NCBI GenBank assembly: GCA_947184155.2 | Contig: CAMXCT020001435.1 | Span: 650,331 to 714,330, forward strand | Length of the DNA: 64,000 nucleotides | DNA from: Cladocopium goreaui | Lineage: Eukaryota; Sar; Dinophyceae; Suessiales; Symbiodiniaceae | Reading direction: 5' to 3' | Shown: one piece after another, positions 29,231 to 64,000 of the stretch | How positions within the stretch are numbered: the first letter of the stretch is position 1 | How the letters are laid out: each line of letters opens with the position of its first letter | Translations under genes and position numbers: made by a program | The notes under the pieces: model-generated | Databases searched by the model: none | Seen by the model: only the letters and a program-made list of their open reading frames with translations | Told to the model about the DNA's origin: nothing

Positions 29231-29239
29231 CTCCTTTCG

Positions 29240-30864
29240 TTAGCAATTCCCCCCGACGATGCACCATCCGAACCCTCGATACAGATTGTAGGCCAATTCG
29301 ATGGCAGTTGTACGCACGAAGATGAATTGGGAGGAGCTGGATATGTTGTCTATGTCATCGAAGGTGGTCGGTCTCGCGTAATTGCATGTCGGTCAGTCGC
29401 TCTGCCGCATTGTTCAGATAATATAGAAGCAGAAATCATGGCCTGCTTGTATCTTGTTGAAGAAGTTGCTGTTGTCGTTAAGCAGCGTTTATCGAGCCGC
29501 GGCCTAATGCCCAAGGTAGTCATTCAAGGGGACATTCTCCCTGTCATTAAGTACTTTCAATTTGCAGGCCGTCTTCGGAGGATAGATATGCACCAACCAT
29601 TGGAAAGCATCCGTTCAACCGTGAGTCTGCATCTCCCGGGTAGTCTATTCATATACCTGCCGAGAGTGGCCAACGGCATAGCAGATGACTTGGCTGGACA
29701 AGCCACCCAGTTCCTGTTGGCTAAATATAGGCGCAACCCCGCTACCTTCAATCGGAATGCTGGACCGGTGTCCATCAAGCCATCATTCCCAACGGGCCTC
29801 TTTCAGGTCGGAGGCTTTCACATTCAAAGTTTTGATCAAACCTGGAGCCAGCCCATACTTACCCTAGTAGAGAGGCCCAGCATTGATCACGGCCTTCTCC
29901 GAAAACATGTGACCCTCCACCCCCATCACCGCCAGCTGATCGAATCCTATCTCTCTCCGTGTCTCCCGCAAAACTGCAGTATTGAAATTGACTATTCCCC
30001 CAAAGCTGCTGACAACTACGGACGAAGATATTGCTGCACCATAGGAGGCCAGCGACTACCGCGTGCTGCCAGGCTGTTATTGTTCGGACAGAATCACTGC
30101 GAAATTGACCTCAAAGGATCTTTCTATGAACTTGTTCGACGCCTGGGGCTACGTTTTGCGCCCGATTTGGTACCCCTCCCAACCATCGATGAGTTCCGCG
30201 CGCAGCTAGCCCGAGACCCCTATATTCAGAAAGTTGAAGCAGTCTGCCCTGACACCATCAAGCAACTCCCATTGAGAATTATCAATAGCTCCCTAGCTGC
30301 TACATACCGATATCTCAGTTCTCTGGTTGACGACTCCCCAGTGCGAGTGTTAGCGCAATCCTCTGCCAACTCGAGTCTCTAAGTACAACCCTGACAACTC
30401 AGTTGCTACCGCGTTTCCGCCCAGGTTTCCTGGTCAACCATAATGACAGCGCTTTTCGATTGCTAGAGCACTTTGAAGCCACAATTGTTGAGGACACCAT
30501 TCGTGCACTCATTGCCCGCCACCCAACACAATCTTTGGTGTGGCTACACGATGGTTTCTTGGTTGCTCCCCCGCCCCCTGAACAAATGCTAAGGCAGATC
30601 GAAAAAGAAGTTCTATCCAATCACCAGCTTTACCTTGGTCAGACATGGTTTAAAGTTACCTCCCTTAGCACAGCACGCGAGGCATATGTAGACACCCTCA
30701 AGCATACCGCCAGTAGCCATGCCCTGTCCCTCACCCGTCGCGCACCCCACAGCTCCCAACGTAAACACCGCAGTGCTCAAGGATCGCCCCATATCTGCGC
30801 CACGCCTTTGGAAGCCCTTGCCAAACTGCGTGCTCGACGCGAACGCCCGACGGGAGTGAGTTAA
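29240..30864 (+). pseudogene. RNase H domain fused to a family A/T7-like polymerase palm, one frame break
   Basis: The first frame (to TAA at 30382) encodes an RNase H fold: FDGS, then DNIEAEI, then VIQGD, then ANGIADDLAGQA, supplying the expected D-E-D-D set. It then reads YGRRY, RLPRAAR, CEIDLKGSFYELVRR (motif A-like) and TIKQLPLRIINSS (motif B-like). The second frame, one base back, is open from 30331 and continues with VEDTIRALIAR and WLHDGFLV, which resembles motif C (HDxF/HDE) of family A DNA polymerases and T7-type RNA polymerases. The pieces line up as one protein with a -1 frame change between about 30331 and 30382. The second frame has no ATG nearby. I find no convincing start: the earliest ATG (29132) lies in sequence antisense to the RT pseudogene, so the 5' end is probably lost. 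Confidence is high for RNase H and moderate for the polymerase. Confidence 0.6.
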
Positions 30865-31660
30865 AATCAAGACCAACCCCATGACCTAGCCTACCACTCC
30901 CCAGGCAGCTTTAGGCTGCTGCAACGTAGTTATTGCTGACTGAAACCTCCTGTTCTCAGGTAGCCCTCATCAGCTCACTACCTTATCTGTACCCACCCTC
31001 TGCCGAGTTAGTTCTCATGCCTCATGTACATTGGTCTTGTCCGGTGGGGTTGGCTCCCAGGGGTACCCTGGGTAGCCCTCCCCACCTTTGCAAGACCCAT
31101 GGGGACATCATAATACTAAACCTTTAGCCTCGGGTAGTCAATGACCCATTCCCTCACTCAGCTAACGAGCCCAGAGAGGTACATGCGCACCAGCTTTAAC
31201 CTGAAGGATTTCAAAATAAGGACGACTATTTGCGGCCCACTAATGATATGGCACTGCAAGGGATTAAGTAGTCCTGTGGATAAGACCCAGGGTCAGCCGT
31301 CCGCGGAAACTCAGCTAAGCTCAAATACCAATCTGCAAATGCTAATAGATTGACAGGCTGTAGTAACTGCTCAACACGACTATGTCCACCTCCCAGTTGA
31401 CCAAAAGTCCATCCCGCAGTATCGCTCCACTATGCTTTTACCTCCTGTTTGCCTCTTTCTGGGTGTTCAGAGGAAATCAACCTCCCACCCTGGGGAAAAG
31501 GTGGGGGGGAAAAAAAAAAGAAAAAAAACAATACAACTACAATACTCTCTGTACTCCTGCTCCTTAGCAAACACAGGCATCGTAAAGCATCGTGTGCAAC
31601 ATTTTGCCCTGAAAGGATGGATTAGAAGTGAGATCATCGCTATGTAACTGCCATACGACC
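30865..31660. other. 3' flank of the polymerase ORF with palindrome and A-rich tract
   Basis: No gene is seen. A palindrome CCCAGGGGTACCCTGGG sits at about 31058-31074. An A9-G-A8 tract lies at about 31510-31528 after a G run. The tract could be the tail of a retrotransposed transcript that includes the RNase H-polymerase ORF, but no target-site duplication was identified. Confidence 0.4.
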
Positions 31661-34600
31661 ATTTCTGTTCCCAAGGGTACCTTGGGTAATGGAGAAACAT
31701 TTTCAGTGACCCGCATCGAGTTGCTAAGGCTCCTTCGGACCGATATAAAATACGTCAAAGGCAGTGGTAGCTTGTTGCTGCCCTTGAATCCCGTTTGCCG
31801 TCTGTCCGTAGATAAGTCCTGTACCATACTATATATTCGACCCTCCGATCTACCTGCGCATTGTTTCCACGGCACATGAAGTTTCAAGGTGCGTTTTTGG
31901 AGTCATTAGCTTCGGGTCGTCCTACTCGAGTGCCATACTCATGGTAAGGTGCAGCAGGTCACGCTGAGTAATACTACCCTTCGGCGCTACTTGCCACCTA
32001 CATTGTTTCCCTTTCGAATGAAGCATTTCGTAATAATAACGAATGGATGACCTTTCCCTGTTCACGCTCAGACGCCAATTAATGCTGGGTAGTTACTGAT
32101 GACACGCATGTCCCAGGAAAAGATATATCTTCTCCGCTTTAACCAGCATGGTTACCCTCAACGCACTACCCAAGCGTTCAACCCCTCATCTCCCACATAG
32201 TAGCTAACCCTGCGAGTGGATGTGGTAAACGGGCCCAATGGATAAAGGTTGCTCCCAGAAAGAACTGTTGCCCACTTTGCTAGTCCAGATTATCGCATCA
32301 AAGAGGGCCCTGTTCCTAATAGTTATTGCCCTGTTGGCAGCATCGCTAGGCTGAGCAACACTTATGCTTAAGGTCCTTTTTCATTATATCATCCTGCCAA
32401 CTGGCGCACGATCTTAATAGAGTTGTAGCATTACCAGCCACGTGGCCATAAGAAATTCCGCAGAATACTCCAATCCATGAAGGTTGCTCCAGGGTGATGG
32501 ACTTCACTTCCCACATGCCACCGCTGAAGATCCTGAGCCATGCACCACCGACGCAGAACAGAGAAGTACCACGCTGACGCCCCCCTCGCGCAGTGTGATA
32601 GAGCCGGTAGGACATTATGTGCTGCCAAGTTAAAGTAGATAGTGCTCTCGCCGCCCATGGCACCTCGTACTCAGAGCTTGATATAGCCTCGAGTGCTAGC
32701 AGTTTAGGACAGCCGCTGTTCCCAAGGGTACCTTGGGTAATGGCGAGTCTCCAACTACCACTTTGCAATGCGGCACACTGTTCCGAACCGGCGTCAGCAA
32801 GTCCTAGCGCTGGTGTCCTGGACGGAGTTTAACCAGAGCAGCAGGCATTGGGTTGCGATAGCTCGCATACATGTGCGCCAAGTAGGCAGCTCGTGAACGG
32901 GCTTGCTTGTGTCTGCCAAGGCCCATGGCCTAAGGATCAGGTTTGTGGGCTACAAGCGTAGCTCCAAAATCCATTGGAACGGAGCAGCGCTAACTCCGTG
33001 GGCTTCAACGATCAGTGAAAAGTAGCTGGCCAGATTTTCTGGCAAATAATTTCTTGCACAAACCAGCCTCTCGGATAAGCCACCTTTTTGGACATCGCAA
33101 GATTTCACAACGAGGGTCAAGGACCATTTCAAATGTTGATGGAAGTACTTCCGCGCATCGATGAACTCAGGCCCTTTCGGATTGGTACAAGGCACAGAAA
33201 GGAGCGGTGGCTACGGTGAGATCTCCAGTTGCCGCATTTGAATCGGAATCGCCATCTGTCCGAAAGGAAGACGTGGAAAATGCTATCTTCCTAGACCCTC
33301 TGTTGTACTCGACAATTGTTTTTACCGCATGGTCTCAAAGTTCTTACCATGTTTCGGGCATCCCATTTGGATGGTTTTGATTGCGAACCCTGTGCAAATA
33401 CTGAGTGACCATTCAATTATTCAATAATTTTTCAGAGGTTGATGCACTCTTTAGACATGCTGAAAGCAGTGGCTGCACTGGCTGGTGCTTCCTAATTACT
33501 GTTGCCATGGTTCCTGCTAGCATCTTGACATTAACTATCACTGCTTGTTTACTTTTTTGGTTGCAAAGCTCAACAAATTGACCGCAAAATAATTTATCTC
33601 CCTGTAACCTAGAGGGACTAGACAGGACCTCAATTACTGAACACTGCTGAAGACCAAAAGTCTGCGTGAGATGGAAAGTTCACTCCCTTAGAACAGCCCA
33701 TTGTGCGTTAAGTAGGCAGCTCGTTCACAGGAGTGCTTGTTTATGCCAAGGCCCAGGGACCAAGGGAGCAGTCTACTGGATACGAGCGGGGCATCTTGAT
33801 GGAATTACGTCCCAGGGTCCAGACAACAGAGCAGCACTAACTCCAGGGGTTTCCGCAATCAGAGAATGGTAGCTGTTAGTTCCTGTCTGTACAGGTAAAT
33901 TTTTTCCATGCCAGCCACTATCCCCCCTGCCTAAATTATCCAATTGACCAGGGGATGTATCTGATTAGGGCCGCCCACTATGCTTGGCAACCGTCCGCCA
34001 TTCTAAGGTAATTATACCCCATCGGTGTACCCTCATCCCTGGTTCTGAGCCAAAGGGGTGTCTATCTAGTCATTGGCTGCCCGTAAGTAGTTGTCTGGTT
34101 GATGGCACGGCACTAAATACTACTACAGTATAGTAACGGCTTAAACATTTGACCCTTTACTGCCACAGCCCAATCTAGGTCCCCCAGTATGATGGACGAC
34201 ACTTCCCTGTCCACGCTGTCAGATGCCAACAAATGCTGGGTAGTTATTGCTGACTCGCACGTCCCAGGGAAAGATATATCTTCTCTACTCTAACCATAAT
34301 AGTATCCACCAGCACACTACCCACGCGCTCAACTCCTAATCTCCCAATATCGTAGCTAATCCTATTGGTGGATGTTTCATAAAACTGGCCAAATGATTAG
34401 CGGTTGCTCCCAGGGATAATTGTTGCCCATTTGTCCTATGTCCGGTTTACCACATTGAGGAGGGCCCTGTATAACGATCTACATGACACACCCTGCTCTT
34501 GATAGTTATTGCCGTGTTGAAAGCATCGCCATGCTGAGCAAACGCCTATGCGTAGAGTTGCTTCTCACTATCACTGTACCAGCCAGCGCACTACCTCTGC

Positions 34601-36300
34601 CTAGTTATAGAACTCCCATCAATGTGGCTATAAGAAATTCCGTGGAATCGTTAAATAAATGAGGGTTGCTCCCGGGTGATGGACAACACTTCCCACATGC
34701 CACCGCTGAAGATCCAGGGCCATGCACCGCCGACGCAGGATGGAGAAGTACCACGATGACGCCTTCCTCGTGCAGTATAATTGAGCCGATAGGACATCCA
34801 GTGCCGCCAAGTTCCAGTTGATAGTGCTCTCGCCGCCCATTGCACTTCATGTTCAGTGCGTAATAGAGCTAGAGTACTAGCGGATTTAGACAGCTGCCGT
34901 TCCCAAGGGTACATTGGGTAATGGCGAGTTTTTACTATTACTCTGAAATGCGATCCACTGTTCCCAACCGATGCCATCTTGGCGTTCTGTCCTTAACTCG
35001 CGCTGAGATAGCCTCTGCCTTGCCCCATATCGATGGGGCATGCAGCAGTGAAGCTCCCATTTGTCAGCAAGTCTTGGCGCTAGTGTCATGGACAGAGTCT
35101 CACTAGATAGCCAGGAGCAGCAGCAGCGGTGGCCACGGTGAAATCTCCAGTTGCCGTAGTTGACTGGCAATCACCATCTGTCCAAAGGAAAGACGTTGAC
35201 AATGCTGTTTTTCATAGCCCCCCCGTTTTTCCCGATGATTATCCTTTGCTGCAGGATCTCAAGGCTATCTTTTTGTTTGTTTCAAGCACATCCCTTTGGA
35301 AGGTCTTGATTGCGGGCTTTGTGGCAAATAATGGGTGGCCATTTAATTATTCAATGACTATTCAATAATTTTCAGAGGTTAATGAACCCTTCCGACATGC
35401 TGCCAACAGCTGCAGGCCAGGCTAGAGTTTCCTAAATTCTGGCAACACAGTTCCAGTCAGCGTCTTGCCACTCGTTATTATAGCCTGTTTGTCTAGTTAC
35501 AAAGCTCACCAAATTGATTGCTGACTAGTTTGTCTCCTATCAATCTCGAGATACTAGGCAGGACCTCAGTTACTGGACACTGACAAGGCAGGGTGTGCAA
35601 CAGGCCTCGTGACGCAGCGCGTGCAACATGGTGCCCGGGGAGAACAGAGAAACTCCACGATGACGCCTCGCACGAGCAGGATAGTTGAGCTGGTAGGACA
35701 TCCATTGCCGCCAAGTATGGGTAAATAGTGTTCTCGCCGCCCATTGCACCTCATGCTCAGAGCTTGATAGAGCCTAGAGTGCTAGCAGTTTCGGACAGCT
35801 GCTGTTCCCAAGGGTACCTTGGGTAATGGCGATTCTCCAACTACCACTTTGAAATGCGGCACACTGTTCCAAACCGGTGCTATCCTAGTGTGCTGTCCTT
35901 CAGTCGCGCCGAAATAGCCTCTGCATCGCCCTCCAGAGATGGCGGCATGTAGCTGTGAAGATCTTTCGTTTTTCCAGCAAGTCCCTTGGCGATGTACAGC
36001 ATTTCGGACCGTATTCGTGTACAGGGCAGCACGTAGCGCAACTGTTGACCATGGTCGTGCCTTAAACCAGCAGCTCTCCCTTTCCCCACCTCGTTCAACT
36101 TCTGCCTATAAGTCTGCAGTGCCAGGTGGAGGAAACCATGAATGACCTGGACAACATAGGGTTTGATGACATAGGGTTTTCCCGCACTCCACCTTCAAGT
36201 AGTCCCGCATGCCCTCACCCCTCGCTGTGCCCCTCACATCGCTAGGAACATGACACATGTGTCTGTCTTTCCTCTACTGTTCCCAAGGGCACCTTGGGTA
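31660..36300 (+). repeat. Palindrome-bearing repeat region upstream of the ORF cluster
   Basis: Non-coding DNA built of diverged direct repeats. Blocks at about 32.04-32.83 kb and 34.19-35.10 kb align over most of their length (offset near 2.16 kb), and a shorter block lies at 35.57-36.0 kb. Within or beside the blocks, TTCCCAAGGGTACCTTGGG followed by TAATGG recurs at about 31670, 32718, 34900 (one change), 35804 and 36280. The arms CCCAAGG and CCTTGGG are perfect complements around GTA. Further shared segments occur at about 33.20-33.45 and 35.12-35.40 kb, and at 32.87-33.02 and 33.71-33.87 kb. Function is unknown: promoter, structured leader or satellite are all possible. Confidence 0.75.
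32950..33195 (-). pseudogene. Antisense fragment related to ORF A
   Basis: An 81-codon minus-strand frame contains NLASYFSLIVEAHGVSAAPF, close to ORF A's SLAFLLPLIVEAHGLLPPKP (near 37420-37480), with weaker similarity on either side. It ends at TGA/TAG with no full gene around it. It appears to be a decayed, inverted piece of an ORF A relative lying inside the repeat region. Confidence 0.45.
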
Positions 36301-36936
36301 ATGGTGAGGGCTCCATTTTCACCCTACCAGGTACTCATCTCTCATGGTTCATCCCCCTTATGACTGTCACTTTCTTCCCAATATCCCGGCCCCATCTATG
36401 CTACCAACATTTGTACTCCTTGCTTTTGTCCTCCTCATTGTCCATTGCTTCTTGCCTATCTTGCACAGATTGCCACCTCCTCCTGTCATATGCTGCGGCT
36501 CCACCACGTGCCCCGCCCCGTGCTACTCACTCCGGTGTCATGAATCTCCTACTGAACCACAATACACTGCCCCTCCAATCCTGCCACCGGTCATATGTTG
36601 TACATATTTCCTTCTGTTGCAGTGTCTGGTATTTTGTTGACTGAGCCTGGACCTAACATGACTCTCTCCGTCAGCAGCCATTGGTTCGAACTGTGAGGAC
36701 ACCGCACCTGCATAAGCCAGTGTTGCTTGGATCCTCACTTTTACTCAACTTCTAATTGCTCGCCCGTTCATTTTCCTTTAAGCCGACACGGGGTTCCCGT
36801 TGTTTGGCCCCTGCCCGTTTCCCGGTGTTTGGCCGCTGCCACGCAATAGCGAGTGGTTCCTGTCGTTTGGTCCTACAAGCCGTGCAACTGCCTCCACTCT
36901 GAAGAGTGCTGCCACTGCAGGGTACCTGCTGCTGGT

Positions 36937-38508
36937 ATGCCGAAGCCAAACCCTTTTCCGTCTGGCCCAATCAGTGTTTCTGATCAACACCTACTGGACA
37001 TATCGGCTGGAATGAATTGGAACATGCCAGCAGCCAGCAGCGTTCGCTTTCTTGCAGTGAGGGGCACAATATGGGTAGGTGATTGCCAGACAACATATAA
37101 TTTCACATTGGTAGAATACCACTTGCATATTGACGAGGTACCATGGATCATTTTTTCGACCCTCGCCGACGCCCTTGAGACAGAGTTTGACCCTGCCTTC
37201 TGGGATACCGTAAATTATGGCCGAAAAGAGCAGTGGGGTTTTCTTGAACCACCCTGGGATGGAAAAGTCTACGGTGCTGCACCACAGTATGCCCAAGTCC
37301 GACTATCCATCTTTAATCGTGACGCTCACACCATGCGTGTTGTGCAACCGTTTGTGTGGAACCATACTCACCTAAAAGTTCACCCGAACGGAGCAATGGT
37401 TTTCCATGACCAAAAAAGCTTAGCCTTCCTGCTGCCTTTGATAGTAGAAGCCCATGGGTTGCTGCCGCCTAAGCCATTGTTCTGGGTCAATGAAGACAAT
37501 ACCATCCCATTGTGGAGAACCACCCTGTGGACGCATGAAGAAACCATCCAGTGGTTAGCTGAGACCGGAGAGCCGTACCCGCAGGAACTGCGAGATGAAC
37601 TCCAGCCGCGCATTGACCAACTTAAGCCTTCACAACATGCGAAACGGGCACTGCCTCCGCCTCCGCCGGTACCGACCAGGTGGGCGGAGCGATCCGCAGC
37701 AAAACAGCCAGCACAAAAAATGCAAGCAGATGCTCCACCGGACCCTAAATGTACTCAGAGCACGCCACAGCAAGTGGCTGACCGAGAGCGGCAATACATG
37801 GAATTGCAGTCTATTATTCATCAAGCAAACCAACAAACGTTGGCAGATAGCCGACCAGCGGCGACCAGACTGACCCAAAAACCAGCCAGTTTGCTGGCCG
37901 CAAGTCAACAAAGCACAGACAATGCAGCAACGGCCGCATCGTCCAATCCCAGTACAGGCGTAGTGGCAGAAGCTCCAACCCCGCAGCAAAGCAAGTCACC
38001 TGACAAAATCAGTGCACAGTCATTATTTCACAGAAGACCAGGCCCACCATCGGCCCTGCCTGCGAACAAAGCGCAAACGGATACCCCGGGTACCGGCGTG
38101 TTATCCTCTGACTCTCACTCTGCAACTCACAGCAAAGATGATGAGCAACAACAACCTCCGGAACAGCTCGCAGCCCACGACGACACATCAACAGAAGAAT
38201 CGTCGCCTGCAAATACACCCAAAGCATCGCCAGAGACTCAAGCGACTGACACTGCTGGTGCTAGCAGCCCTGAGCCCGCCAGTGACTCCATGCAGGACGT
38301 CGACCTCGCCGCAGCGGACATCCCAACGTTGCAGAACATGGAAAAGACAGCCTGTGAAAGAGTGGCCTCCTGTGAAACGCGACTCCTCAATGCCCGCGAG
38401 CACCTTACTCGCATTAGAAAGCGCCTTAAAAGAATGCAAGATGCCCACTCACCAGGCACTCCGCAACCCTCTCCTGTTGCAGATATGGAAATGGAAATCA
38501 TTGACTGA
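36937..38508 (+). CDS. ORF A: N-terminal globular domain, disordered middle, C-terminal coiled coil
   Basis: The frame is open from 36853, but the first ATG is 36937, giving about 523 residues. Residues 1-220 look globular and rich in aromatics (for example VPWIIFSTLADALE, KEQWGFLEPPWDGK, PLIVEAHG). Then come a Pro run (LPPPPPVPTRW), about 200 residues rich in Pro, Gln, Ser, Thr and Ala that are probably disordered, and a basic coiled-coil-like end (NMEKTACERVASCETRLL to RIRKRLKRMQ). I recognise no family. It lies 650 bases upstream of ORF B on the same strand and has no introns. A relative is found as an antisense fragment at 32950-33195. A structural or nucleic-acid-binding protein would fit, but that is speculation. 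Confidence 0.65.
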   Translation: MPKPNPFPSGPISVSDQHLLDISAGMNWNMPAASSVRFLAVRGTIWVGDCQTTYNFTLVEYHLHIDEVPWIIFSTLADALETEFDPAFWDTVNYGRKEQWGFLEPPWDGKVYGAAPQYAQVRLSIFNRDAHTMRVVQPFVWNHTHLKVHPNGAMVFHDQKSLAFLLPLIVEAHGLLPPKPLFWVNEDNTIPLWRTTLWTHEETIQWLAETGEPYPQELRDELQPRIDQLKPSQHAKRALPPPPPVPTRWAERSAAKQPAQKMQADAPPDPKCTQSTPQQVADRERQYMELQSIIHQANQQTLADSRPAATRLTQKPASLLAASQQSTDNAATAASSNPSTGVVAEAPTPQQSKSPDKISAQSLFHRRPGPPSALPANKAQTDTPGTGVLSSDSHSATHSKDDEQQQPPEQLAAHDDTSTEESSPANTPKASPETQATDTAGASSPEPASDSMQDVDLAAADIPTLQNMEKTACERVASCETRLLNAREHLTRIRKRLKRMQDAHSPGTPQPSPVADMEMEIID

Positions 38509-39153: not shown

Positions 39154-40650
39154 ATGCTGCAACAGCTTATGACACCAAATAGGTTCATTTCCTTGACGTC
39201 GCCTGACCCTGATGAATCAGAAACAGACATCGAACCAGCAGAGCCAACCGCTCCAGATAACACAGTCGAGGATGTGTCAATGCACAGTGATACAGAATAC
39301 TTTGACGCCCTCGAGACGGATGATGACGTTCCATATTTCCAACAAGGGACTGAGCCTCCCCCAAGGGAGAAGTGGGAAATTGCCGCACCTATCGATTTCT
39401 TGAATGTTCACGAGGTCACACAGTTAAGCCACCAGCTTGACCAACTGTTCCTCTCGCAAAAAGAAGTTGAGACCCCGCTCGGCATGGATGACATAAAACA
39501 GAGGTGGAAATGGGACGATGTCGGCTCCTGTCGAATGCCCCGGTCACCCCTGACATACCCTGCACTCATGGTGGACGAAGGGAACGGCATCCAACGACCC
39601 GCAGCCAGCCAGGTCCATCATAGAACGCTCTTCCAGTGGATAGCAGATAATCTCTCATGGTTACCTCAGTATGCCACCGTATATGTTTATGTGGACAACC
39701 GCAAACTGTCAGGCACTGACCCTCCAGCCTACTGGCCGCATTTTGCACCCTGGATCAAAGGCCGATGTACAGTGACTGGCCCTTACCAGGAGAAAACTAC
39801 TGCGATCCATTTTCCCATTCATGCTGACACAGGTTTGCATCAGGTCCATTATACCTGGGCTGGTGCCGCAGCTCTGGAGGCGCTGTGTTTAATGTTCCCC
39901 ACTGTAAATTTTGCTCTCATCGACTCTGACTGCGTGCCAACCTCATTGTTTGAAGTAGCCGAGCTCGTCAATCTCATGACGGATAAGGCAAGCAGAGCCG
40001 CAGCAATGCAACATAACACAATGGCCAGCTCTAACCAGTGCCCTCCAGCAGTACTCCTTGCCACAGAAGCCAAAGCCGAACTTAATGCCGGCTTGATCAT
40101 TGTGACAGGGCACATCCCGACTGAGGCACCCGATGTAGAAATGGCCCAAGCAACCCCGGAAGCAGACATGCCACCAGCCCCTGCCCAAAGCTCCTCTCCG
40201 AGTGCTGCACCTGCCCCAAAGGCACGACGAATAGCCCACCCTGCCAATCGCACAGCAGATGATTGGGTTACCGCACTCCAGGATAGCAGAGCCAGTTTCC
40301 TAGCTACAACCGCTGTGCCAGAAGACCCTGCGGAAGCAATGAGGGGAGGACTGCTTCTCACCCCCTACTCGGCTGTAGAGCTAGAACCCCACTTGACTGG
40401 ACACATGCATGGGCAATGTTGGGCGAATGGGCAGGAGCCATTGCATTCCCCATCCCGGAGCGAGGAGAATGGCCACGTCACGGGGATGGCCGATACCTTA
40501 GACCGGACTTTGCCGAGCGGACCCCGCCATTCCTTACCTGGGCACGCCCCATTTTCGAACAAGGTGCACTCTCCCCTCTGTCAGTTTTCCCAGCCGACTT
40601 CCCCATACTTTGTCTTCCAGGAGACAAACTGTTCCAAAGCAAGGAGTTAA
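39154..40650 (+). CDS. ORF B: GT-A glycosyltransferase-like protein, probably read on into ORF C
   Basis: The frame opens at TTG 39103; the first ATG is 39154. The N-terminal 70 residues are acidic. A domain at about residues 100-330 contains TVYVYVDNR, TWAGAAALEALC, FALIDSDCVPTSLFEV and ELNAGLIIV. A hydrophobic strand ending in D-x-D, with a downstream N-A/S-G-hydrophobic motif, is typical of GT8-like GT-A glycosyltransferases, where the DxD binds metal and nucleotide-sugar. A Pro/Ala-rich linker follows, then GGLLLTPYSAVELEP near 40380. After that this frame loses protein character while the frame one base back (ORF C, open from 40287) reads on with DWTHAWAMLGEWAG. The true product is therefore probably B and C together, by programmed -1 shift, unseen intron or assembly error. 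No classical slippery heptamer is visible. Confidence 0.6.
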   Translation: MLQQLMTPNRFISLTSPDPDESETDIEPAEPTAPDNTVEDVSMHSDTEYFDALETDDDVPYFQQGTEPPPREKWEIAAPIDFLNVHEVTQLSHQLDQLFLSQKEVETPLGMDDIKQRWKWDDVGSCRMPRSPLTYPALMVDEGNGIQRPAASQVHHRTLFQWIADNLSWLPQYATVYVYVDNRKLSGTDPPAYWPHFAPWIKGRCTVTGPYQEKTTAIHFPIHADTGLHQVHYTWAGAAALEALCLMFPTVNFALIDSDCVPTSLFEVAELVNLMTDKASRAAAMQHNTMASSNQCPPAVLLATEAKAELNAGLIIVTGHIPTEAPDVEMAQATPEADMPPAPAQSSSPSAAPAPKARRIAHPANRTADDWVTALQDSRASFLATTAVPEDPAEAMRGGLLLTPYSAVELEPHLTGHMHGQCWANGQEPLHSPSRSEENGHVTGMADTLDRTLPSGPRHSLPGHAPFSNKVHSPLCQFSQPTSPYFVFQETNCSKARS

Positions 40651-43600
40651 CCATAGGGTATAGTCTGCCACCTATAGTGCACGCCTTCCATGGGAGCAAA
40701 GTAGGCCTAGGACAACAACTCCGACAGTGGCTAAACAAAGGGCTGCAACCGCTTGCTGTGTCGCTCATAGGAGTCGACGAGGCACCACCGTTGTGGACAC
40801 ACCCCACAGGCTGCGATTTTGTTAGAGGGAGTAAACTAATCGCCAAGCCGCATGTCCTGCAAAACAGAAGCCTTACCAAGCTGCAGGTGTTGCTTCTTCA
40901 GAGTCTGTGGACGCCGGTGGAAGCCCCCAACAACAACAATGACCATACACCTTGGTCCAAGACTTGCGATCCTGCCAATGTTTTCTGCGGTCAGCATGCG
41001 AGCCTCCAGCTCCCCAGTGCCCCAATCCTCCCCCTGCTGGAAGCGCTGCAACGGCGACTGGGCATTGACCCTGGCAACGCAGAACTAGCAATCAACGAAG
41101 TGCTTGCTAGCCATACTGACCCCCAATACACTGCTTGGAAACTCACTGTCATGGATAACACCTCCTGGCAACTCAATGACGCTGACCCAGGGTCCCTGGA
41201 AGTTCAGTGCACTGGGTTGGGTGGAGGAGAACTCGATGAAGACTGGGACGTACTGCTAGCCTGCAAAAAGGAAGCACATGTTTACGGGCCATCCCTGAGC
41301 AAACAGGACGATTGGAATGCAAGAGCTGGCACAGTAGCAGGCACTGCTCACACACAAGAATACTTGCTCCTGCACATCGCCATGTTTCCCATAGGTGCAC
41401 ACTTCTGGTGCCGCGTCTTAGGCATGCCCAGTGCGAACCAATTGCAAGCGCAGATTATCAGTCGGGCCATGAAGCTGTTGCAATTCTGTCCCATCATCCC
41501 AGCACACAGGAAACCACCGTGGCCCGGGTACATACATGGCCTGCGACTTTTCACTAAGTTGCTAGTTGCACACCCGCTAGTCGGAGTATGTCTGCCCCCT
41601 GAAATCCGCCCAGTCGATCTTCTGAGATTAACAGGATACATGGTAGGCTCCATCTACATTCGGGGGCACAGCGCTGGCTCGTACGCAGGAATGGTATGGG
41701 AAACTATCCTCTCAGAATTCCCAGATGTTGGTGGCAAAACCGTGCTAGCAGCCATTGCGCTACCACCATCGCTGCTCACGACATGCAATTTATCTCAGCT
41801 GAGAGAGATCCACCTCATTCACCATGCAGATGACAGGCTCTGCGTATGGAACCCGTCAAACCATGACATCAAGCTGCTTAAGCAACGGGGCTTTAAAATT
41901 ACGCATATCACAGGATGGAGAGCGTACCTCGGTACTGCACAACATAACTACTCGCATTGGACAAGAGTTGCCCTCCCAGAAGGACGACCAGATATGGAGC
42001 AGTTAGAAGGTACCCCTGGAGTGCTCCCCTTCGAAGTGTACTCACAGGCTCCCCTCCGACTGATCTCATGGTGCAGCTTTGAGCTCTCAAGAACTGCCAG
42101 AAAACTCCTGCGTGAATTAGCGGAAATGTGTGAGCTACCTGAAACCACGACACAGGCACTTGTTACACACATTGCTGCCCACAATTCAGAGGTCAAAACT
42201 GAGCAAGAGGCAACCCAATACTTAGCCACGTTGGCAACAGTCACCATCTCCTCAAGGTCCAAGTTGCTCAACTATACCACTATGGTACAACATTTCCTCG
42301 GCACCTTGCAATTGCCCCTGGCTGTCTACATGTTAGACTACTACTTGCCCATGCTCAGTCCAAATGAAGGCTATAATGAAACAGGGTTAACAATGCAAAG
42401 TGCAGGCCCTATCCGGCAACCATCGCAACCCATCGCCCTTGAATTCCTCTTCAAAGGCAGCGAGTTTGGACACTGGAAAGTTAAAGGCGGGCAGGATGCT
42501 TTCGCGTTCCGACACCCAAGCCTGGGCAAAACTGAAGTGTTCAGCCTGCTGGCCAGCGATGCGCACCATCACAAAGTCAGCCCCATTGGCACGGGTAGGC
42601 TCATTGCCATGGTGGGTACAGCGGACGCACTAGCTTATGATGGAGATGACCTTCAAATCCTTTTTGGCTTGGTCCTCGCCATCACGCCACGCGCAGCCAA
42701 AAAAAAGGATGAGCTGGCTGCCTCACGCATATACAGACAGTGCAACCCTAAATTCATCGAAGTTGCTTTCCTCTCAGGACCGGCCATTGAGTTTTTTGCA
42801 AAGGAACAACTCGAAGCCCTCCAAGACTGGTATAGTGCCTCCGGCCAGCACCTGGACCCCGTTGACGCGACCGTCCAGGGGCAGAACAGCCCGGTCCCCC
42901 AGACCTTCTTTCTCGATACAATGTGGATGTTCGGATGTACTAAGCCTACCCGTGAGCTTACCGCGGTTGCGCAAACCCCCCCGTGCAGGTACCACCTGGG
43001 ATTAGGCATTTACAATGTCCAAACAGCAGTAGAAGGAATGGAGGGCAACAAAAGATCACATTTCTTGCATTTGTGCGGCCAGTTGCTCCGCCTAGTGCTA
43101 ATTCCATGTCACGTGGAGGGCGAGCTTCACCCTTGGACTCGCTCCACTGCACTTTCCTTTGCCGCTGAGCTTGACGGACACGTTTTAGGCACACTCTGCG
43201 CAGTGACAATGGCGTTGCTCACCAACCGGCTAGATCTGTGCATCCAAGGGCTTTTCGGAGCAGGCAAGTCGAAATCGATGGCAATCCTCATCCTGGCCTT
43301 GATTGAAATCGACACTACCGACAGCCTCAAAATATTGTTCATTTGCAAAGAGAACTCCGGCACTCGATCCTTTGCGGACCTCCTCCTATGGCTCGACCCC
43401 CCGTCGGGGGTGTTTGGGCGCATAGGTAGGCTGGTGGGAGACCAAGAGCGCAACAAAAGCAGTTACTCGCACACGAAATTTGATATCCACCCGAGAGAAA
43501 GAAGGCAAATGCTGAACAAGTGTCAATTAATATTAGCCACCGGGGGAACGGTAGCCCAGGATCTTACCATGCAATGGTCCACAATGAGTGGATTCATGCA

Positions 43601-46600
43601 AGAGCTCTCCCTCCTGGTCATTGATGAAGGCCAGCAGTACGGCACTGACCGCGAAATTGCAGTTATCAGCCTGCTGAAACAGCAACCCCTGGTCCTGTGG
43701 ACAGGAGACTCGGAGCAGACACCTGGCGGTATTGATCGGGCAGCTCGCAACGCCAAACGGGCACGACAACTACTGTTAGCCAAAAAGCATGGCCTGCGAA
43801 GCGACCGCAACTACTACATGCCCGCCAACCTTGCCGATGCAATGATCCGACTGCTAGATGGTTCGGCGAATGAAGGCTTAACGGCTCTTAGTCAAATCCT
43901 CAAACGAGGCCAGTCCACATTAGGTCAGCTATGGACAAGTCACCTCTCGCCGCAGGATGAGGAAGACCTCAGGGCAGCCAGCACTGTGCTCCCAGGCCTC
44001 AAAGCCGTATTTGAAGCAGCTCAACCAAATATGCAACGACACTCCCGATTCGTAGACTCGGAACTGCTGGCGGGTACCGCTCTCAATTTTCCACGGTCTC
44101 TCGTGCGCCTTGCCTGGATTTTGCAGCATGCCGCTACCCTCCTGCCCATGGCTGGTGACATACAAGCAGTATTAAACTCTCAGACCGCCGGTGTAAGCGA
44201 CATCCATGCCTGGGGGTTAATGCTTCCGTCCAGCTCCAGGGTTAGTCCTGTGACATACCATGCAGTGGTTGCAGTTAGATATCCTAATCTTTGCAGGAAG
44301 ATCAATGGCCTATGGGAACTAGGAAGTTTTGCTTCGGGAGGCCTTCCCGACAAGCCACCCGGGTTCCAACTAGTGCTCTGGGATACTAATGCTAGGATCA
44401 ACGGTTTGGTAGCGACGGATTTAGAAACTCTAGTGTCAGAAGTACTCAGCCCCTTTCCTCACAATGCTGGATTTGCCGATGGGCTTTTCACAATGACCAC
44501 AGCAACTGATCATAAGAACAATTTGAACCGCTCCGTGCTCAAAAGAGATTATGTCCGCACCCTGCGTGTAGAAACAATAGCCAATTCGGCAGGAGGAACA
44601 GCGCAGGTATCAATCGTAGCTCAGCCCAGTATTGGATTTCTCAACACTAAGTATTACTCCAATGGCTCTCCTACAGAAGATACTGAAGACTGCCTAGGCA
44701 GAATCACTGTCGGACTCACTCGGTCCAAATCGTTAACCCTGCTGGTCTCCCCACTAGACATGATGGGGCTCATGGGCATGGCACAGGTGATTGCTGCAAT
44801 TGCATATGGCATCCGGGGCCTACGGAGAGGAGAAACGACATGGAGATGGCCAGACTTTGACCCTGACCCAGTTCAAGAGAATCTCGCACAGTTGAGCCGA
44901 TGGTCACTGAATTCGGCACCAACCTGGGAGTTCCCTCCCCTTGCAATCGCCAATCAATACTACGATCAGCAAGCTGACGAAGTGAAGCGAGCAAGATACC
45001 GTCTGATATTGGTGCGAGGGTCAGACCTTCGATGGCTAAACAGGGAACGCTTCCAAGAAGTTGAAGCAGGCTTACGAACTCAACACAAGTGGCTCCCCGA
45101 GCAAGATCTCCCTTTCTCTGAAGTTGTCCTATATGCCTACGCTGCTGATCGCACACCCTTTCCCACCTACGTGTGCCTACCCTCAGGACTGTACAAAGCA
45201 CGCACCGGGCACATAGTAGCACAGACGGGCCCAGACCAGGAGATCCTGTCCCTGCCTGGCATATACTTCTTTGATGGATGGCGATTACACCCGAAGTTGC
45301 CGATCCCAGACCACTTGCCACGCGCAAAAGAGGCGCCAGTCCGAGGTACCGCCCTCAATGCACCTGCCCCAGATACGGAACCCAAACGGTCGCCAGAAGA
45401 AGAAGCACGAGATATCCTCGCAGTAGCTGCCAAGAACCAGCCCGAAGATGGGCCAAGCACAAGAAGAGCAGCTGTTCGCGCATGCAAGTACTTACGAGCC
45501 ATGGTCAGCCAATATGAAACCACCATCCAAGCCGTGCACAGTGCCGCCCGCACCCACACGCAAAGAAGCAAAGGCACGGTGGGACCTGCAGTTGACTATC
45601 GCCCACAAGGAGAAGCCCTCCCCGTCATCTCGGCGGACCTAACCTCCGAATTGTTGCATTGTCTATCCACGCTCCCAGACCCATGGCCCCTAGCTAAGAT
45701 CACCATAGACATGGAGAAACCGAGCCAATGGGTCTCAAAGTTGTGCAGACTTTATTTTGCTGACGAGTATGCCAAGCGAACAGTTGGATTGCCCTCGCGT
45801 AGGCATGTTCCGGACATCGCGGGTGCACTGCGAGCAGTTCAAGCCATCCTCCCTAAACTCGAAGTCAAAATGATTGAGTTCTTAGCTGAATGGATGGTAA
45901 CTCTTCTAATGCCAGCCTCGCACGTATTGGAAGTGAGGGCACCTCACCTTTCCTTTATGATGCTTAAGGAATACTGGTTTAGAGAACTTTATCTAGGCCT
46001 GAAAGTCACAGCGTCCTTCGACCGCTCTGAATCATACACTAGAGTGATCGATGGTCAAGTAAGATGTATCACGCCTGAAGTCAAGCCGCAGAACCTACAG
46101 GTTATCTGGAATGTGCAGTTCATCACAGTCTTTGTGCCGGCATGGATGATCCCGCCCGTCTATCATAGCCTGCGCAGAGAAAGCATTAAAACTACAAGTT
46201 CTGCAAGTCCCATAGGAGTCCAGTCAGTCCGTCCCACCTGGTTTGAAGACACAACACCCAGGGACACTACATCCCAGCAACCTCAAGACCCTCAAAAAGA
46301 GCAACCCCAGCCACTGCATGGGCTGAAGTTAGTCATCAAAGAAGAGGTGCTACCAGCGACTGACCAACCACAATTCCAGTCACTTGAGCTGCTGGCTGGC
46401 AGAGGTCTCTTAGCACCTGACACATGGAAGTGCAAACGTGCACAAGTCAGCCTTAAAGCAACTATCGATGTCCCAATGTTGGGTACAATCATAGAGGAAA
46501 ATGGTGACGGACTCCTGGAAGATTCCCATATGCCTGTGGGATGGCCACTCCACATTGATGGCGCTGTCAGACAATGCTGTATTCACAGAGCTGCTAGCTT

Positions 46601-47282
46601 ACAAGAATTAGATGATATGCTCAAAGAATATGACATGAAAAGGGATTCAGTAGAAATCAACCGTGACGCGCCCCAATGGTCCCATCATGCAGTATGGAAC
46701 CGAAAGTATATGGAACCGAGCCCAGGATACACACTGGAGCAACTATGGGCCGACTCCGAACCTGCCATAAGCAAAAAAACAACCACGTCATATGATGTAC
46801 AAACAAATGACGTGCAACGTGCAGTAGCGGCCATTCAGCACTTCCCATCCCCCGTTCCCCCTGATAGCCCCTTCATAAGAACACTAGGGACACCGGCTGC
46901 CCTAAAAGCCCCACCGCAGACGGACACCCTGGCGCAAAGAGCTCTAGAAGAATGGGAACGCACTGTGTGTGAAAACAAGGCAGTGGCAATCCTCGCCGAG
47001 ATCCAAGCCGGCCGACCAACTATAATCCATAAAGATGGGGGTGAAATGCTCATTGCCATTGTCCTTGATAGGCCACTGGCGGAAGCGAAAGCACTAGTGG
47101 ATGACCCTGCGGCATTCGCTCGCGAAATGACGCGAATCCTGCGTGACAAACAAACCCACCCGCTTATTGCCCAAATGATGAAACCAGCGGCAAGCAGTAA
47201 TCCACCCTCCGCCGCTGCTGCAGCCAGTGGTGCTAGTAGCAGCAGAGAGCCTCGCGCTGCCTCACACGAGCAGTTCCAGTGA
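40416..47282 (+). CDS. ORF C: giant alpha/beta-hydrolase-like plus superfamily 1 helicase protein
   Basis: From ATG 40416 there are 2,288 uninterrupted codons. Residues 1-380 are unassigned. At 410-515 a hydrolase-like set appears: IYIRGHSAGSYAG (nucleophile S419), HHADDRLCVW (acid D472/D473) and HNYSHW (base H510/H514), with the usual strand spacing. At 940-1440 there is an SF1 helicase: GLFGAGKSKS (K951), LLVIDEGQQYG (D1070-E1071), LWTGDSEQTPGG (D1098) and VGLTRSKS (R1436), nearest in style to Upf1-like enzymes. The remainder has a conserved PGIYFFDGWRLHP segment, then YWFRELYL, VPAWMIPP and a Ser/Ala-rich end. An edge-truncated paralogue at 59.4-64.0 kb keeps the acid, base and helicase motifs in the same order. 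No membrane segment or signal peptide is evident. Its role is unknown; replication or mobility of an element is likely. Confidence 0.8.
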   Translation: MLGEWAGAIAFPIPERGEWPRHGDGRYLRPDFAERTPPFLTWARPIFEQGALSPLSVFPADFPILCLPGDKLFQSKELTIGYSLPPIVHAFHGSKVGLGQQLRQWLNKGLQPLAVSLIGVDEAPPLWTHPTGCDFVRGSKLIAKPHVLQNRSLTKLQVLLLQSLWTPVEAPNNNNDHTPWSKTCDPANVFCGQHASLQLPSAPILPLLEALQRRLGIDPGNAELAINEVLASHTDPQYTAWKLTVMDNTSWQLNDADPGSLEVQCTGLGGGELDEDWDVLLACKKEAHVYGPSLSKQDDWNARAGTVAGTAHTQEYLLLHIAMFPIGAHFWCRVLGMPSANQLQAQIISRAMKLLQFCPIIPAHRKPPWPGYIHGLRLFTKLLVAHPLVGVCLPPEIRPVDLLRLTGYMVGSIYIRGHSAGSYAGMVWETILSEFPDVGGKTVLAAIALPPSLLTTCNLSQLREIHLIHHADDRLCVWNPSNHDIKLLKQRGFKITHITGWRAYLGTAQHNYSHWTRVALPEGRPDMEQLEGTPGVLPFEVYSQAPLRLISWCSFELSRTARKLLRELAEMCELPETTTQALVTHIAAHNSEVKTEQEATQYLATLATVTISSRSKLLNYTTMVQHFLGTLQLPLAVYMLDYYLPMLSPNEGYNETGLTMQSAGPIRQPSQPIALEFLFKGSEFGHWKVKGGQDAFAFRHPSLGKTEVFSLLASDAHHHKVSPIGTGRLIAMVGTADALAYDGDDLQILFGLVLAITPRAAKKKDELAASRIYRQCNPKFIEVAFLSGPAIEFFAKEQLEALQDWYSASGQHLDPVDATVQGQNSPVPQTFFLDTMWMFGCTKPTRELTAVAQTPPCRYHLGLGIYNVQTAVEGMEGNKRSHFLHLCGQLLRLVLIPCHVEGELHPWTRSTALSFAAELDGHVLGTLCAVTMALLTNRLDLCIQGLFGAGKSKSMAILILALIEIDTTDSLKILFICKENSGTRSFADLLLWLDPPSGVFGRIGRLVGDQERNKSSYSHTKFDIHPRERRQMLNKCQLILATGGTVAQDLTMQWSTMSGFMQELSLLVIDEGQQYGTDREIAVISLLKQQPLVLWTGDSEQTPGGIDRAARNAKRARQLLLAKKHGLRSDRNYYMPANLADAMIRLLDGSANEGLTALSQILKRGQSTLGQLWTSHLSPQDEEDLRAASTVLPGLKAVFEAAQPNMQRHSRFVDSELLAGTALNFPRSLVRLAWILQHAATLLPMAGDIQAVLNSQTAGVSDIHAWGLMLPSSSRVSPVTYHAVVAVRYPNLCRKINGLWELGSFASGGLPDKPPGFQLVLWDTNARINGLVATDLETLVSEVLSPFPHNAGFADGLFTMTTATDHKNNLNRSVLKRDYVRTLRVETIANSAGGTAQVSIVAQPSIGFLNTKYYSNGSPTEDTEDCLGRITVGLTRSKSLTLLVSPLDMMGLMGMAQVIAAIAYGIRGLRRGETTWRWPDFDPDPVQENLAQLSRWSLNSAPTWEFPPLAIANQYYDQQADEVKRARYRLILVRGSDLRWLNRERFQEVEAGLRTQHKWLPEQDLPFSEVVLYAYAADRTPFPTYVCLPSGLYKARTGHIVAQTGPDQEILSLPGIYFFDGWRLHPKLPIPDHLPRAKEAPVRGTALNAPAPDTEPKRSPEEEARDILAVAAKNQPEDGPSTRRAAVRACKYLRAMVSQYETTIQAVHSAARTHTQRSKGTVGPAVDYRPQGEALPVISADLTSELLHCLSTLPDPWPLAKITIDMEKPSQWVSKLCRLYFADEYAKRTVGLPSRRHVPDIAGALRAVQAILPKLEVKMIEFLAEWMVTLLMPASHVLEVRAPHLSFMMLKEYWFRELYLGLKVTASFDRSESYTRVIDGQVRCITPEVKPQNLQVIWNVQFITVFVPAWMIPPVYHSLRRESIKTTSSASPIGVQSVRPTWFEDTTPRDTTSQQPQDPQKEQPQPLHGLKLVIKEEVLPATDQPQFQSLELLAGRGLLAPDTWKCKRAQVSLKATIDVPMLGTIIEENGDGLLEDSHMPVGWPLHIDGAVRQCCIHRAASLQELDDMLKEYDMKRDSVEINRDAPQWSHHAVWNRKYMEPSPGYTLEQLWADSEPAISKKTTTSYDVQTNDVQRAVAAIQHFPSPVPPDSPFIRTLGTPAALKAPPQTDTLAQRALEEWERTVCENKAVAILAEIQAGRPTIIHKDGGEMLIAIVLDRPLAEAKALVDDPAAFAREMTRILRDKQTHPLIAQMMKPAASSNPPSAAAAASGASSSREPRAASHEQFQ

Positions 47283-47611
47283 GCCACATGAAGTGACGCA
47301 GAGACCCCAAATTTATCATCCATGCATTTAGCGTGTAACTTGCTTCAGGTTGAGCGGGGTTGTCACCATGGGGTACTCATGGTTGATGGCCACCTGCTAC
47401 AATTGCCTATGCTGTCAGCATGTCGGAGCCAATCGGGGAAGGGAGGCGGTAGGGGGCGGATATCTTAATCCTGTTCTGGGTTTTTAATTTGTATTTGTTC
47501 ATGTTGTGCTACCTTAATTGTTGCATGGTAGTTTAGTGCGATGTCAAAGTACATCAAGCCATGGCGCCCGTTGCTGTCTTGCTCAGGCAATCCAGTACCT
47601 GCATTGCTTGA
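47283..47611. other. Spacer between ORF C and ORF D
   Basis: 329 bases with no gene or repeat seen. Confidence 0.5.
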
Positions 47612-48067
47612 ATGCCACCTGACCATATGAGCTCAGTGCAATCAAGTGAAGTAGTATGCCTGCCTCAAGAACCCCAGACTCACAATGAGGCACAGGATCT
47701 CCTCCTACTGCAGGACTATGTGCACAGACTGACGAATACTCTCAGAACTTTGGAAGACACCCACGCCGTATTGCAGCAAACAGAACTCCTTGCAGGTGTT
47801 ATCAACGAGCAAGACTGCAGAGACATTCGCACAGCCTGCTGTTGCATAAGAAGTCTGCGCATTCGAGTAGAAGCCCGTGCCAATGTTACGGAACGTGAAG
47901 TGATTAGTCGACAGCTACAGCTCATGCATGCGAGCGTACAACATTACCGGACTGAGGACCTTAACACAGCTGACACAAGTTGCCTGTCCAGAACCTCGTT
48001 TGAACACTTTGAGGATAGACCTGGTCCTTGGGCAGAGAAAAACGCTCGTATTCCTACACCAAGGTAA
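47612..48067 (+). CDS. ORF D: small helical protein
   Basis: ATG to TAA, 151 residues; an alternative start is Met6. Residues 25-120 are predicted by eye to be helical and partly coiled (AQDLLLLQDYVHRLTNTLRT, LQQTELLAGVINEQDC, with CCCIRSLRIRVEARA). No family is recognised. It follows ORF C on the same strand, as small ORF D' follows C' on the minus strand, although D and D' show no clear similarity. It may encode an accessory factor of the element. Confidence 0.5.
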   Translation: MPPDHMSSVQSSEVVCLPQEPQTHNEAQDLLLLQDYVHRLTNTLRTLEDTHAVLQQTELLAGVINEQDCRDIRTACCCIRSLRIRVEARANVTEREVISRQLQLMHASVQHYRTEDLNTADTSCLSRTSFEHFEDRPGPWAEKNARIPTPR

Positions 48068-48102
48068 CTGAGCTAGCTACCATGATCACCTGACCGCATT
48101 TA

Positions 48103-48450
48103 ATGCAGTTGGTTTCAACACTTGCTAAGTTGACCGCTCGAGCTGCGCAACGCTTGCAAGCCTGCATCCATATTGTCGAGCTCGCCCTTCGCGAACTCGA
48201 TCGCATTGGATTCAGTTTTGAAAGCGGTATACACCGCCAGAGTGCACTGCAACTCCCATATATGGGTACAATCTCCCATATCACGAAGCTGCATAGCATG
48301 AGCACTCGCATAGTGAAGCTGCTCACAATACCGGTGCAATATGATGATTGGAAAAGCAGTACTGAGCGGACTCTGAGGGTACCTGAGTGCTGTTACCGCG
48401 CCGTCTTTTTCACCTTAGATCACGTTTCACCCCTTGTTTCACGGCGGTAG
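48103..48450 (+). CDS. ORF E: small protein downstream of ORF D
   Basis: ATG to TAG, 115 codons, one frame back from ORF D and 36 bases after its stop. The first half looks helical (STLAKLTARAAQRLQACIHI and LALRELDRIGF) and the rest is less regular. No family is recognised. It may be a separate gene or a broken extension of ORF D. Confidence 0.4.
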   Translation: MQLVSTLAKLTARAAQRLQACIHIVELALRELDRIGFSFESGIHRQSALQLPYMGTISHITKLHSMSTRIVKLLTIPVQYDDWKSSTERTLRVPECCYRAVFFTLDHVSPLVSRR

Positions 48451-49820
48451 TTTCTCACCACTTTGTTGTGACCCGGCGTTGTCGGTGTTTGCTTCAAAGT
48501 GTCAGGGTGTAATGTCATGCCGTGAAGGCGCTCGTTGTGATCTCGGGGATCCTGGCTGGGGGGATCCCTGGTTTCCGCATTGAGCCTTGTTGCTTCCCGC
48601 ACCCTTCAAGTGGCCCATGGTGATTTCGTCTTTTTTGTTTGTTGTTGTTTAATTTTATGGGCCTGTCAACATGACACACAAGTTGTCATCTGCATGCGCT
48701 GAGATGATAACAAGCTATCACCTCTCGCCTCAACAGATCTGTTTCACCCATAAACTGGAACCTGTCACGTCACGGTTTTGTGGCCTTGTGGTTGTTTTTC
48801 TTTTGTGTGTTTTTGGTTTGTTTGTGTTTTGTTTGTGTTTGTTTTGGTGTTTTTGTTTGCTTTGGTTTTTTGGTTTTCGGTTTCTGTTCTCCGTTTTGTT
48901 CTCTGGAACGTGACAAAGCCTTTGGACTATGTATCGGTCCTCTTCCAGTTTACTTTTGCGGCCACTACAGCATCGGCCCCTGCGTGAATTCAGTAATTAA
49001 TCTCATTTGCAACATGCTTGGATAGATGTTGAACGACCTGGCGAAAGCCACACGGCGTTGGACGGAAAAAAGGTCACTGCACTGTGCAACTTCACCGATG
49101 GCCGCAGGGGAGAACTTTCAAGGCGACACCAGTCCTCTGAACGCACCCAACCAACTGTGAACCCTGTTTGAACTCGTCAACCACTCCCAAGTCTGGTCAA
49201 CGGCCTTGAGCATGGCCTCCCAAAGGAGGATATTTTTGCCACCAAGGACTGCGGCAACTTCAGACTCTTGAGAACACTCTCCTCACTGCGTAGTGAGGCC
49301 AAACGCTTCAACCAGAAGCCAAGTCTGCCAGGCCTGTAGGAGACACGTTGTTGTGCATCCATGATCTGAATGCTTGTCAACTGTTTCCTTCAAGACATCA
49401 GACAAGCATGACTTTAGAGTAGCAGGATGCCCAAACTTCACCATCTGTTGTATGAAAGCTTCCATGGAACTCCCCAAATTTGCGTTTTACACACGCCAGT
49501 CCGTTGACCTTCAGAGCTACCGCACTTTAACATGATCCTATCAATTTCAATCCTGTGCAAGTTGCTGTCCTGACACCCAAGCCCCCCCACTTGTCGAAGG
49601 CAGCAAGGAGGGAACCACTTGAAGCAGCTTGGAGCCCTTAGGCAACAAAGTAGCTGCATTCACTTCAACCGCTGGGAGCTTGTGCCGCACACACAATCTG
49701 TCCCAAACGAGCTGGACATTCCCAGTTGTTTCAAACATGCCGTGACGCGGCCAGTGCCCGCAAAAATCCACAATAAGACAGCACGAGCAAGCGTGCTGAT
49801 GCGGCTCCCTTGTCACTACC
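48451..49820. other. 3' flank of the ORF cluster; GT-rich tract; no confident gene
   Basis: A strongly G/T-rich tract (about 48770-48900) lies downstream of ORF E. The C' units also have a G/T-rich tract near their 3' end on the coding strand, but I see no clear homology between them. Minus-strand ORFs at about 49280-49850 are short and unassigned. Confidence 0.45.
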
Positions 49821-63999: not shown

Positions 64000-64000
64000 C

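Follow-up and report, generated by a model that had tools for sequence, protein, structure and literature searches.

A giant multi-enzyme-like open reading frame of Cladocopium goreaui, probably the 3′-most one of a high-copy non-LTR retrotransposon

In the dinoflagellate Symbiodinium, a long interspersed nuclear element (LINE), SymbioLINE-Dnmt, carries an extra enzyme open reading frame (ORF) under purifying selection (PMC5890265). Here we describe a 64,000-nucleotide stretch of the genome of another dinoflagellate, Cladocopium goreaui (contig CAMXCT020001435.1, positions 650,331 to 714,330; hereafter the window), in which two overlapping ORFs, B and C, encode parts of one very large protein, BC. 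We consider it likely that BC is the 3′-most ORF of a giant, high-copy element of the dinoflagellate nuclear genome, hereafter E1, which belongs to the LINEs (non-long-terminal-repeat, or non-LTR, retrotransposons) with an apurinic/apyrimidinic (APE)-type endonuclease.

The systems closest to E1 were compared with it. Like SymbioLINE-Dnmt, E1 is a dinoflagellate LINE with a constrained extra enzyme ORF; however, SymbioLINE-Dnmt has a DNA methyltransferase upstream of its reverse transcriptase (RT), whereas E1 has a putative glycosyltransferase (GT)-hydrolase-helicase ORF downstream of its Pol ORF and a predicted family-A polymerase domain within Pol (PMC5890265). A superfamily 1 (SF1) helicase is also carried by insect LINEs, but there a viral-type helicase lies inside the retrotransposon polyprotein, while E1 has a separate ~2,705-residue ORF with two further enzyme-like parts (PMC6338049). 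Terminons, the giant Penelope-like elements of rotifers, resemble E1 in size, frequent 5′ truncation and accessory ORFs, which include esterases/lipases; they differ in their Penelope-like RT and the lack of an endonuclease, and the part of their description available names neither a GT nor a family-A polymerase (PMC6431247). The APE endonuclease and LINE-type RT rule out that E1 is a Terminon or another Penelope-like element. TV-Pol, a family-A-type polymerase of mobile elements, shares two catalytic Asp and a conserved Arg in a hairpin with the E1 domain, but it comes from bacterial elements, viruses and a plastid and has no nuclease fusions (PMC2579912), in contrast to the position of the E1 domain behind a LINE RT and RNase H; in the E1 domain, RxxxK spacing was not seen. 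Finally, T7 DNA polymerase, with the DNA polymerase I fold, is 11% identical to the E1 domain, which is embedded in a LINE Pol and in which an exonuclease domain was not seen. A literature search, thin on subscription papers and preprints, revealed neither a family-A polymerase nor the GT-hydrolase-helicase order in any LINE. E1 is thus a LINE by every completed test, with an architecture that we did not find described.

ORFs B and C encode a single protein

The initial annotation of the window proposed that ORFs B and C together encode a single product some 2,700 residues long. We searched the genome (1,165,616,438 bases in 6,202 contigs) for BC and scored the best 21 of 6,397 candidates. At 12 of these 21 places an uninterrupted frame of 2,727–2,740 codons was present; at four, the frame was equally long but contained one or two stops, and at five, including the window copy, it was shorter. 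Twenty loci were fetched, from which 12 intact proteins starting with MLQQL were kept for comparison and eight were dropped; counted from this start, the 12 proteins are 2,702–2,710 residues long. A database protein, P0005 (2,707 residues), is 62% identical to ORF C across 99% of the latter and covers ORF B too. In the window, the frame containing the ATG of ORF B is open from 39079, ORF C encodes 2,288 residues, and its frame is already open well before its start, so that both frames are open over a stretch within which the frame switch falls (Table 1). These data confirm that ORFs B and C jointly make up a single ~2,705-residue protein, frame-shifted in the window copy. No named family spanning BC was found in Pfam, PHROGs or PDB sequence searches, as the initial annotation had anticipated, and matches were limited to weak ones in the helicase part.

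The coding sequence of BC is under constraint. The mean ratio of nonsynonymous to synonymous substitution rates (dN/dS) among the 12 intact copies was 0.087 (64 of 66 pairs, those with dS > 0.03), a figure biased low because the copies were picked by protein score. By region, the ratio ranged from 0.05 in the helicase to 0.19 in the first 75 residues; the GT-like part gave 0.109 and the hydrolase-like part 0.119.

The element around BC

Comparison of the window with two other copies (C5970 and C6004) revealed a common unit whose end is at 49071 and whose upstream part reaches far beyond ORF A. The order of the element is ORF0, Pol (APE endonuclease, RT, RNase H and a predicted family-A polymerase fold), spacer, ORF A, BC, 3′ untranslated region (UTR) and A-tail. 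BC had been taken for a stand-alone giant protein; this did not hold, as it is the 3′ ORF of what is likely a high-copy LINE, of which the window contains a 5′-truncated, frame-shifted copy.

The Pol ORF was analyzed in a piece, L050, of a further copy, C2223, where 2,036 residues of a 2,066-codon open frame were read. Searches against Pfam matched RVT_1 (1.6e-14) and Exo_endo_phos (4.6e-10), which pass their cut-offs, and RVT_3 (5.2e-4), which narrowly misses its own. A profile of Pol relatives matched R2 retrotransposon proteins in the PDB (best E 4.8e-6). The predicted structure of the family-A domain had a mean confidence score (pLDDT) of 83.3; the first 31 rows of a Foldseek structure search were all family-A DNA polymerases, as were 50 of the 50 VIA rows listed. 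The catalytic Asp residues of motifs A and C are invariant in the 14 rows of alignment A6, from which P0059, with motif A kept and motif C lacking, was left out. Pol is predicted from this to bear a family-A palm/fingers fold. ORF0 is located upstream of Pol (L050:3–1901, + strand), overlaps its frame by a few bases and runs off the piece, encoding at least 632 residues. The 632 residues read, which do not include the 5′ part, gave no clear match to a Pfam family (ABATE scored best, at 0.056), and no methyltransferase was among their Pfam matches. In the window, the ORF at 29129–30382 (P0027) matched RVT_3 at 9.6e-4, below cut-off, and the RNase H family PHROG 531 at 2.5e-5; no RT part was found upstream of ~29.19 kb, the copy being 5′-truncated.

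The sequence read for the window and C6004 carries Pol and BC in one contiguous stretch. Scoring of 100 among 748 Pol candidates placed a same-strand Pol 7.6–10.0 kb upstream from BC at six of the 21 BC places (C536, C2223, C1348, C2730, C1040 and C1435). This contiguity and similar spacing, together with the short A-tail following BC, which resembles that of LINE insertions, make it improbable that BC with ORF A is a separate mobile element that stands beside, or was captured by, a LINE. Such an arrangement would accommodate the ~6 kb repeat-bearing spacer between Pol and ORF A, as well as the 5′ start of C5970 at window-equivalent 31343, just past the Pol part and immediately after the A-tail of an element of a second family, E2 (see below).

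The 3′ end of E1 consists of GGACGG followed by 6–10 A and then by differing DNA in all 20 copies compared (window, C5970, C6004 and 17 more). A 34-base pattern of this end matched the genome exactly at 863 sites (435 + 428), and its reversed control at none. The 5′ starts differ among the window, C5970 and C6004, the last beginning inside the RT with part of the RT lost. The LINE features of E1 are a LINE-type RT, an APE-type endonuclease encoded together with it in one ORF, and variable 5′ truncation combined with a fixed, A-tailed 3′ end. The distance from the L050 start to the end of the A-tail in C2223 is ~24.6 kb; its middle ~6.5 kb is known from the equivalent part of the window and C6004, not from C2223 itself. 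A multi-copy host gene, as an alternative identity for BC, would account for its long, constrained open frames. The 863 3′ ends, A-tails, varied flanks and 5′ truncation, and the insertion of copies into related elements in both orientations, speak against this so strongly that we give it almost no credence, and a single host gene is ruled out by the number of 3′ ends, the A-tails and the differing flanks.

In the 3′ flanks (L027–L043, window, C5970 and C6004), eight of 20 start with a related element oriented as E1 is, and four with one oriented oppositely. E1 copies are heavily nested. Template jumping is a possible origin of head-to-tail chains but is not claimed, since insertion into older copies explains the flanks too. 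Just downstream of E1 in the window, at 49822–50570 (+), fragments are 70–79% identical to coding parts of BC (42545–45025) and represent an older or different relative. Within the spacer, at 31637–36309, five copies of a 61-nucleotide repeat were observed, most with a perfect palindrome, CCCAAGGGTACCTTGGG, and no Rfam match; a search of window positions 28000–52000 against Rfam gave nothing at gathering score. No repeat framing the 5′-truncated window copy was found among the 20 repeat families listed out of 27 for the window. A 21-mer that we take to be the dinoflagellate spliced leader has 172 exact copies in the genome, its reversed control having none, in keeping with a dinoflagellate host; the size of the genome is likewise in line with Symbiodiniaceae.

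Enzyme-like parts of BC and a second family

Four motifs, DSD, NAGLIIV, EQGAL and HAFHGSK, occur in this order in the N-terminal part of BC, and correspond to DxD, NAG, (D/E)Q and late-His motifs that we take to be the GT8 set. The GT-like motifs do not stop within ORF B, which corrects the initial annotation: DSD and NAGLIIV lie there, while EQGAL and HAFHGSK fall among the first 100 residues of ORF C. The GT-like domain is therefore divided by the frame break. A strict ordered GT8-type pattern was found in three of five relatives tried (P0012 has DSN instead of DxD, and P0007 a change just before DxD) and in none of 2,000 shuffles for each of two sequences. The motifs are kept in the E2 proteins P0043 and P0030, with 39–40% identity in that region. 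The GT call, regarded initially as the weakest, is thus stronger than was thought, though a GT-A fold is unproven; no GT profile was matched in a PDB profile search or in Pfam with ORFs B and C scanned apart.

Behind the GT-like part, the hydrolase-type motifs G(H/F)SAGS, DRLCVW and H(N/S)Y.H follow in order. This set, noted already in the initial annotation, is conserved: the pattern was found in eight of eight proteins tried and in one of 2,000 shuffles of P0005. Neither ordered motif set is due to chance; the GT and hydrolase identities rest on motifs and are unproven as folds. The predicted structure of the GT-like and hydrolase-like stretch had a pLDDT of 35, with neither fold confirmed. 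Among the Foldseek rows listed for this model, 49 of 50 were alpha/beta-hydrolase-fold proteins, none at E ≤ 0.001, which is a hint for the hydrolase-like part only, and there were zero GT-A enzymes, which is uninformative either way.

The low score of this model, the DSN of P0012 in place of DSD and the lack of a GT or hydrolase family match by sequence in Pfam or PDB would also fit a LINE whose GT8-like and hydrolase parts are inactive, being structural or nucleic-acid-binding folds with residual motif residues. We consider this rather unlikely, given that motif order is kept in both E1 and E2, that dN/dS in the two regions is low (in the biased sample) and that hydrolase folds predominate among the rows of the weak model.

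The SF1 helicase motifs I, II, III and VI are clear, as first described. Eight of the 10 proteins tried have them, the exceptions being ORF B itself and P0043, in which the helicase region is missing. Assignment to SF1 stands, while the proposed Upf1-style affiliation is unproven, the Pfam matches being weak and divided among several families. ORF C matched DEAD at 4.2e-4, under the DEAD cut-off, and among 14 members AAA_30 was matched in seven, AAA_19 in five (best 1e-5), DEAD in four (best 5.2e-5) and Viral_helicase1 in two. P0033 has a precomputed AAA_19 annotation. A PDB profile search gave no helicase match.

An SF1 helicase beside a glycosyltransferase recalls endornaviruses, and an endornavirus-like origin was considered as a speculative option. 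Family-A-like polymerases are known in mobile elements and viruses, for example Sputnik (PMC2579912), and the element might accordingly be, or descend from, an integrated virus that encoded a polymerase, a helicase and enzymes acting on sugars. With an APE endonuclease, a LINE RT, A-tails and 5′ truncation on the other side, and no capsid gene recognized in the stretches read (ORF0 and ORF A are without assigned function), we find a viral identity highly improbable, and still prefer a LINE.

The second family, E2, is present in the window at 51958–64000 (−) and is 28% identical to ORF C over ~1,290 aligned columns. The protein identity between E2 and E1 is 28–35%, and the GT-hydrolase-helicase motif order, which the initial annotation suggested looking for in other proteins, is retained in the longer E2 relatives. 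When 30 of 4,885 genome candidates were scored, nine had frames of 2,551–2,630 codons without a stop. For the two E2 copies in the window, which were not picked by score, dN/dS was 0.17 over 779 codons (dS 0.125). Clusters matching BC, E2 and Pol are nameless in listings and have up to 1,018 member sequences. The two window copies of E2 are arranged head to tail: the A-tail of the first is near 56362, and the second, 5′-truncated, starts directly after it and has its own A-tail at 51958. Adjoining this 3′ end, at 51709–51957 (+), is a fragment that shares 33% identity with the C-terminal portion of the LINE RT.

Elsewhere in the window, tandem arrays of a GATA-type 10-bp unit (8748–10422), a 50-bp unit (12478–13356) and a 94-bp unit (22457–22979) were observed, relatives of the last being inverted at 7667–8034. 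In another fetched piece (L026:927–3740, −), a 939-codon frame with zinc knuckles (zf-CCHC, 8.9e-5) is probably the gag of another retrotransposon.

Table 1. Features of the E1 copy in the window
Feature	Position	Strand	Basis or remark
Pol ORF remnant: RNase H and first part of family-A-like domain	29192..30340	+	matches to C6004 copy
Second part of family-A-like domain, other frame (broken here)	30337..30861	+	98.9% identical to C6004 copy, residues 168–342
Spacer of ~6 kb with internal repeats	30862..36852	+	no long ORF; repeats D12, D14, D15, D18; present in C6004, mostly in C5970
ORF A, 551 residues, low-complexity middle	36853..38508	+	no Pfam family at E ≤ 1; same 552-codon frame in C6004 copy
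ORF B, N-terminal part of BC	39154..40650	+	ORF and frame listing; tail beyond frame switch out of frame
GT8-like DxD (DSD)	39922..39930	+	motif comparison
GT8-like NAGLIIV	40084..40104	+	motif comparison
Double-open stretch holding the frame break of this copy	40287..40650	+	one frame in 12/21 scored copies
ORF C, remainder of BC	40416..47282	+	ORF listing; scored genome copies
GT8-like EQGAL, in ORF C	40557..40571	+	motif comparison
GT8-like late-His motif HAFHGSK, in ORF C	40680..40700	+	motif comparison
Hydrolase-type nucleophile elbow GHSAGS	41664..41681	+	motif comparison, shuffle test
Hydrolase-type acid motif DRLCVW	41832..41849	+	motif comparison, shuffle test
Hydrolase-type His motif QHNYSH	41940..41957	+	motif comparison, shuffle test
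Helicase motif I GLFGAGKS	43248..43271	+	motif comparison
Helicase motif II IDEGQQ	43620..43637	+	motif comparison
Helicase motif III GDSEQTPGG	43704..43730	+	motif comparison
Helicase motif VI GRITVGLTR	44697..44723	+	motif comparison
3′ UTR	47283..49065	+	shared end at 49071 in three copies
A-tail (6 A), fixed element 3′ end	49066..49071	+	20/20 copies

Proposed replication of E1

Several points weigh against a giant LINE that includes BC and a family-A polymerase. The element is pieced together from partially read copies, that of C2223 covering neither its 5′ end nor its middle. At C3669 and C685 the listed Pol match is at an unusual distance from BC, 16 and 25 kb. At C5970, both borders of which were read, the sequence is A-rich and ambiguous as to a target-site duplication. 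The RxxxK spacing of the family-A O-helix was not found, the invariant Arg and Lys being 21 residues apart, and we therefore claim a family-A fold and no named subfamily such as TV-Pol. To these are added the bias in dN/dS of BC and the poor model of its GT-like and hydrolase-like stretch.

If E1 is a LINE, as we think likely, Pol would nick the target and copy the element RNA from the A-tail by target-primed reverse transcription, and RNase H would remove the RNA. The family-A domain may then act as the second-strand DNA polymerase. Unwinding of the very long RNA template or hybrid, or removal of its proteins, by the SF1 helicase of BC might allow ~25 kb to be copied. The GT8-like and hydrolase domains could modify a host or element component in an accessory or counter-defence role, though this is a guess. 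DNA-base glucosylation was considered as a further speculative possibility. Taken together, the polymerase and helicase suggest that this LINE may provide for second-strand synthesis itself. We put forward, tentatively and with more doubt than confidence, that a LINE with its own family-A DNA-dependent DNA polymerase and helicase completes both strands without host replication enzymes, its GT and hydrolase targeting host nucleic-acid modifications or defence factors, and so amounts to a self-contained, virus-like replication kit.

The start and finish of second-strand synthesis are called unclear even for human LINE-1 (PMC7617806). Should E1 prove to be a LINE with its own family-A polymerase and a large helicase ORF, this step could be tested directly. 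Such an element would also mean that LINEs reach ~25 kb carrying multi-enzyme accessory ORFs under constraint, and a class of huge nameless proteins would be explained.

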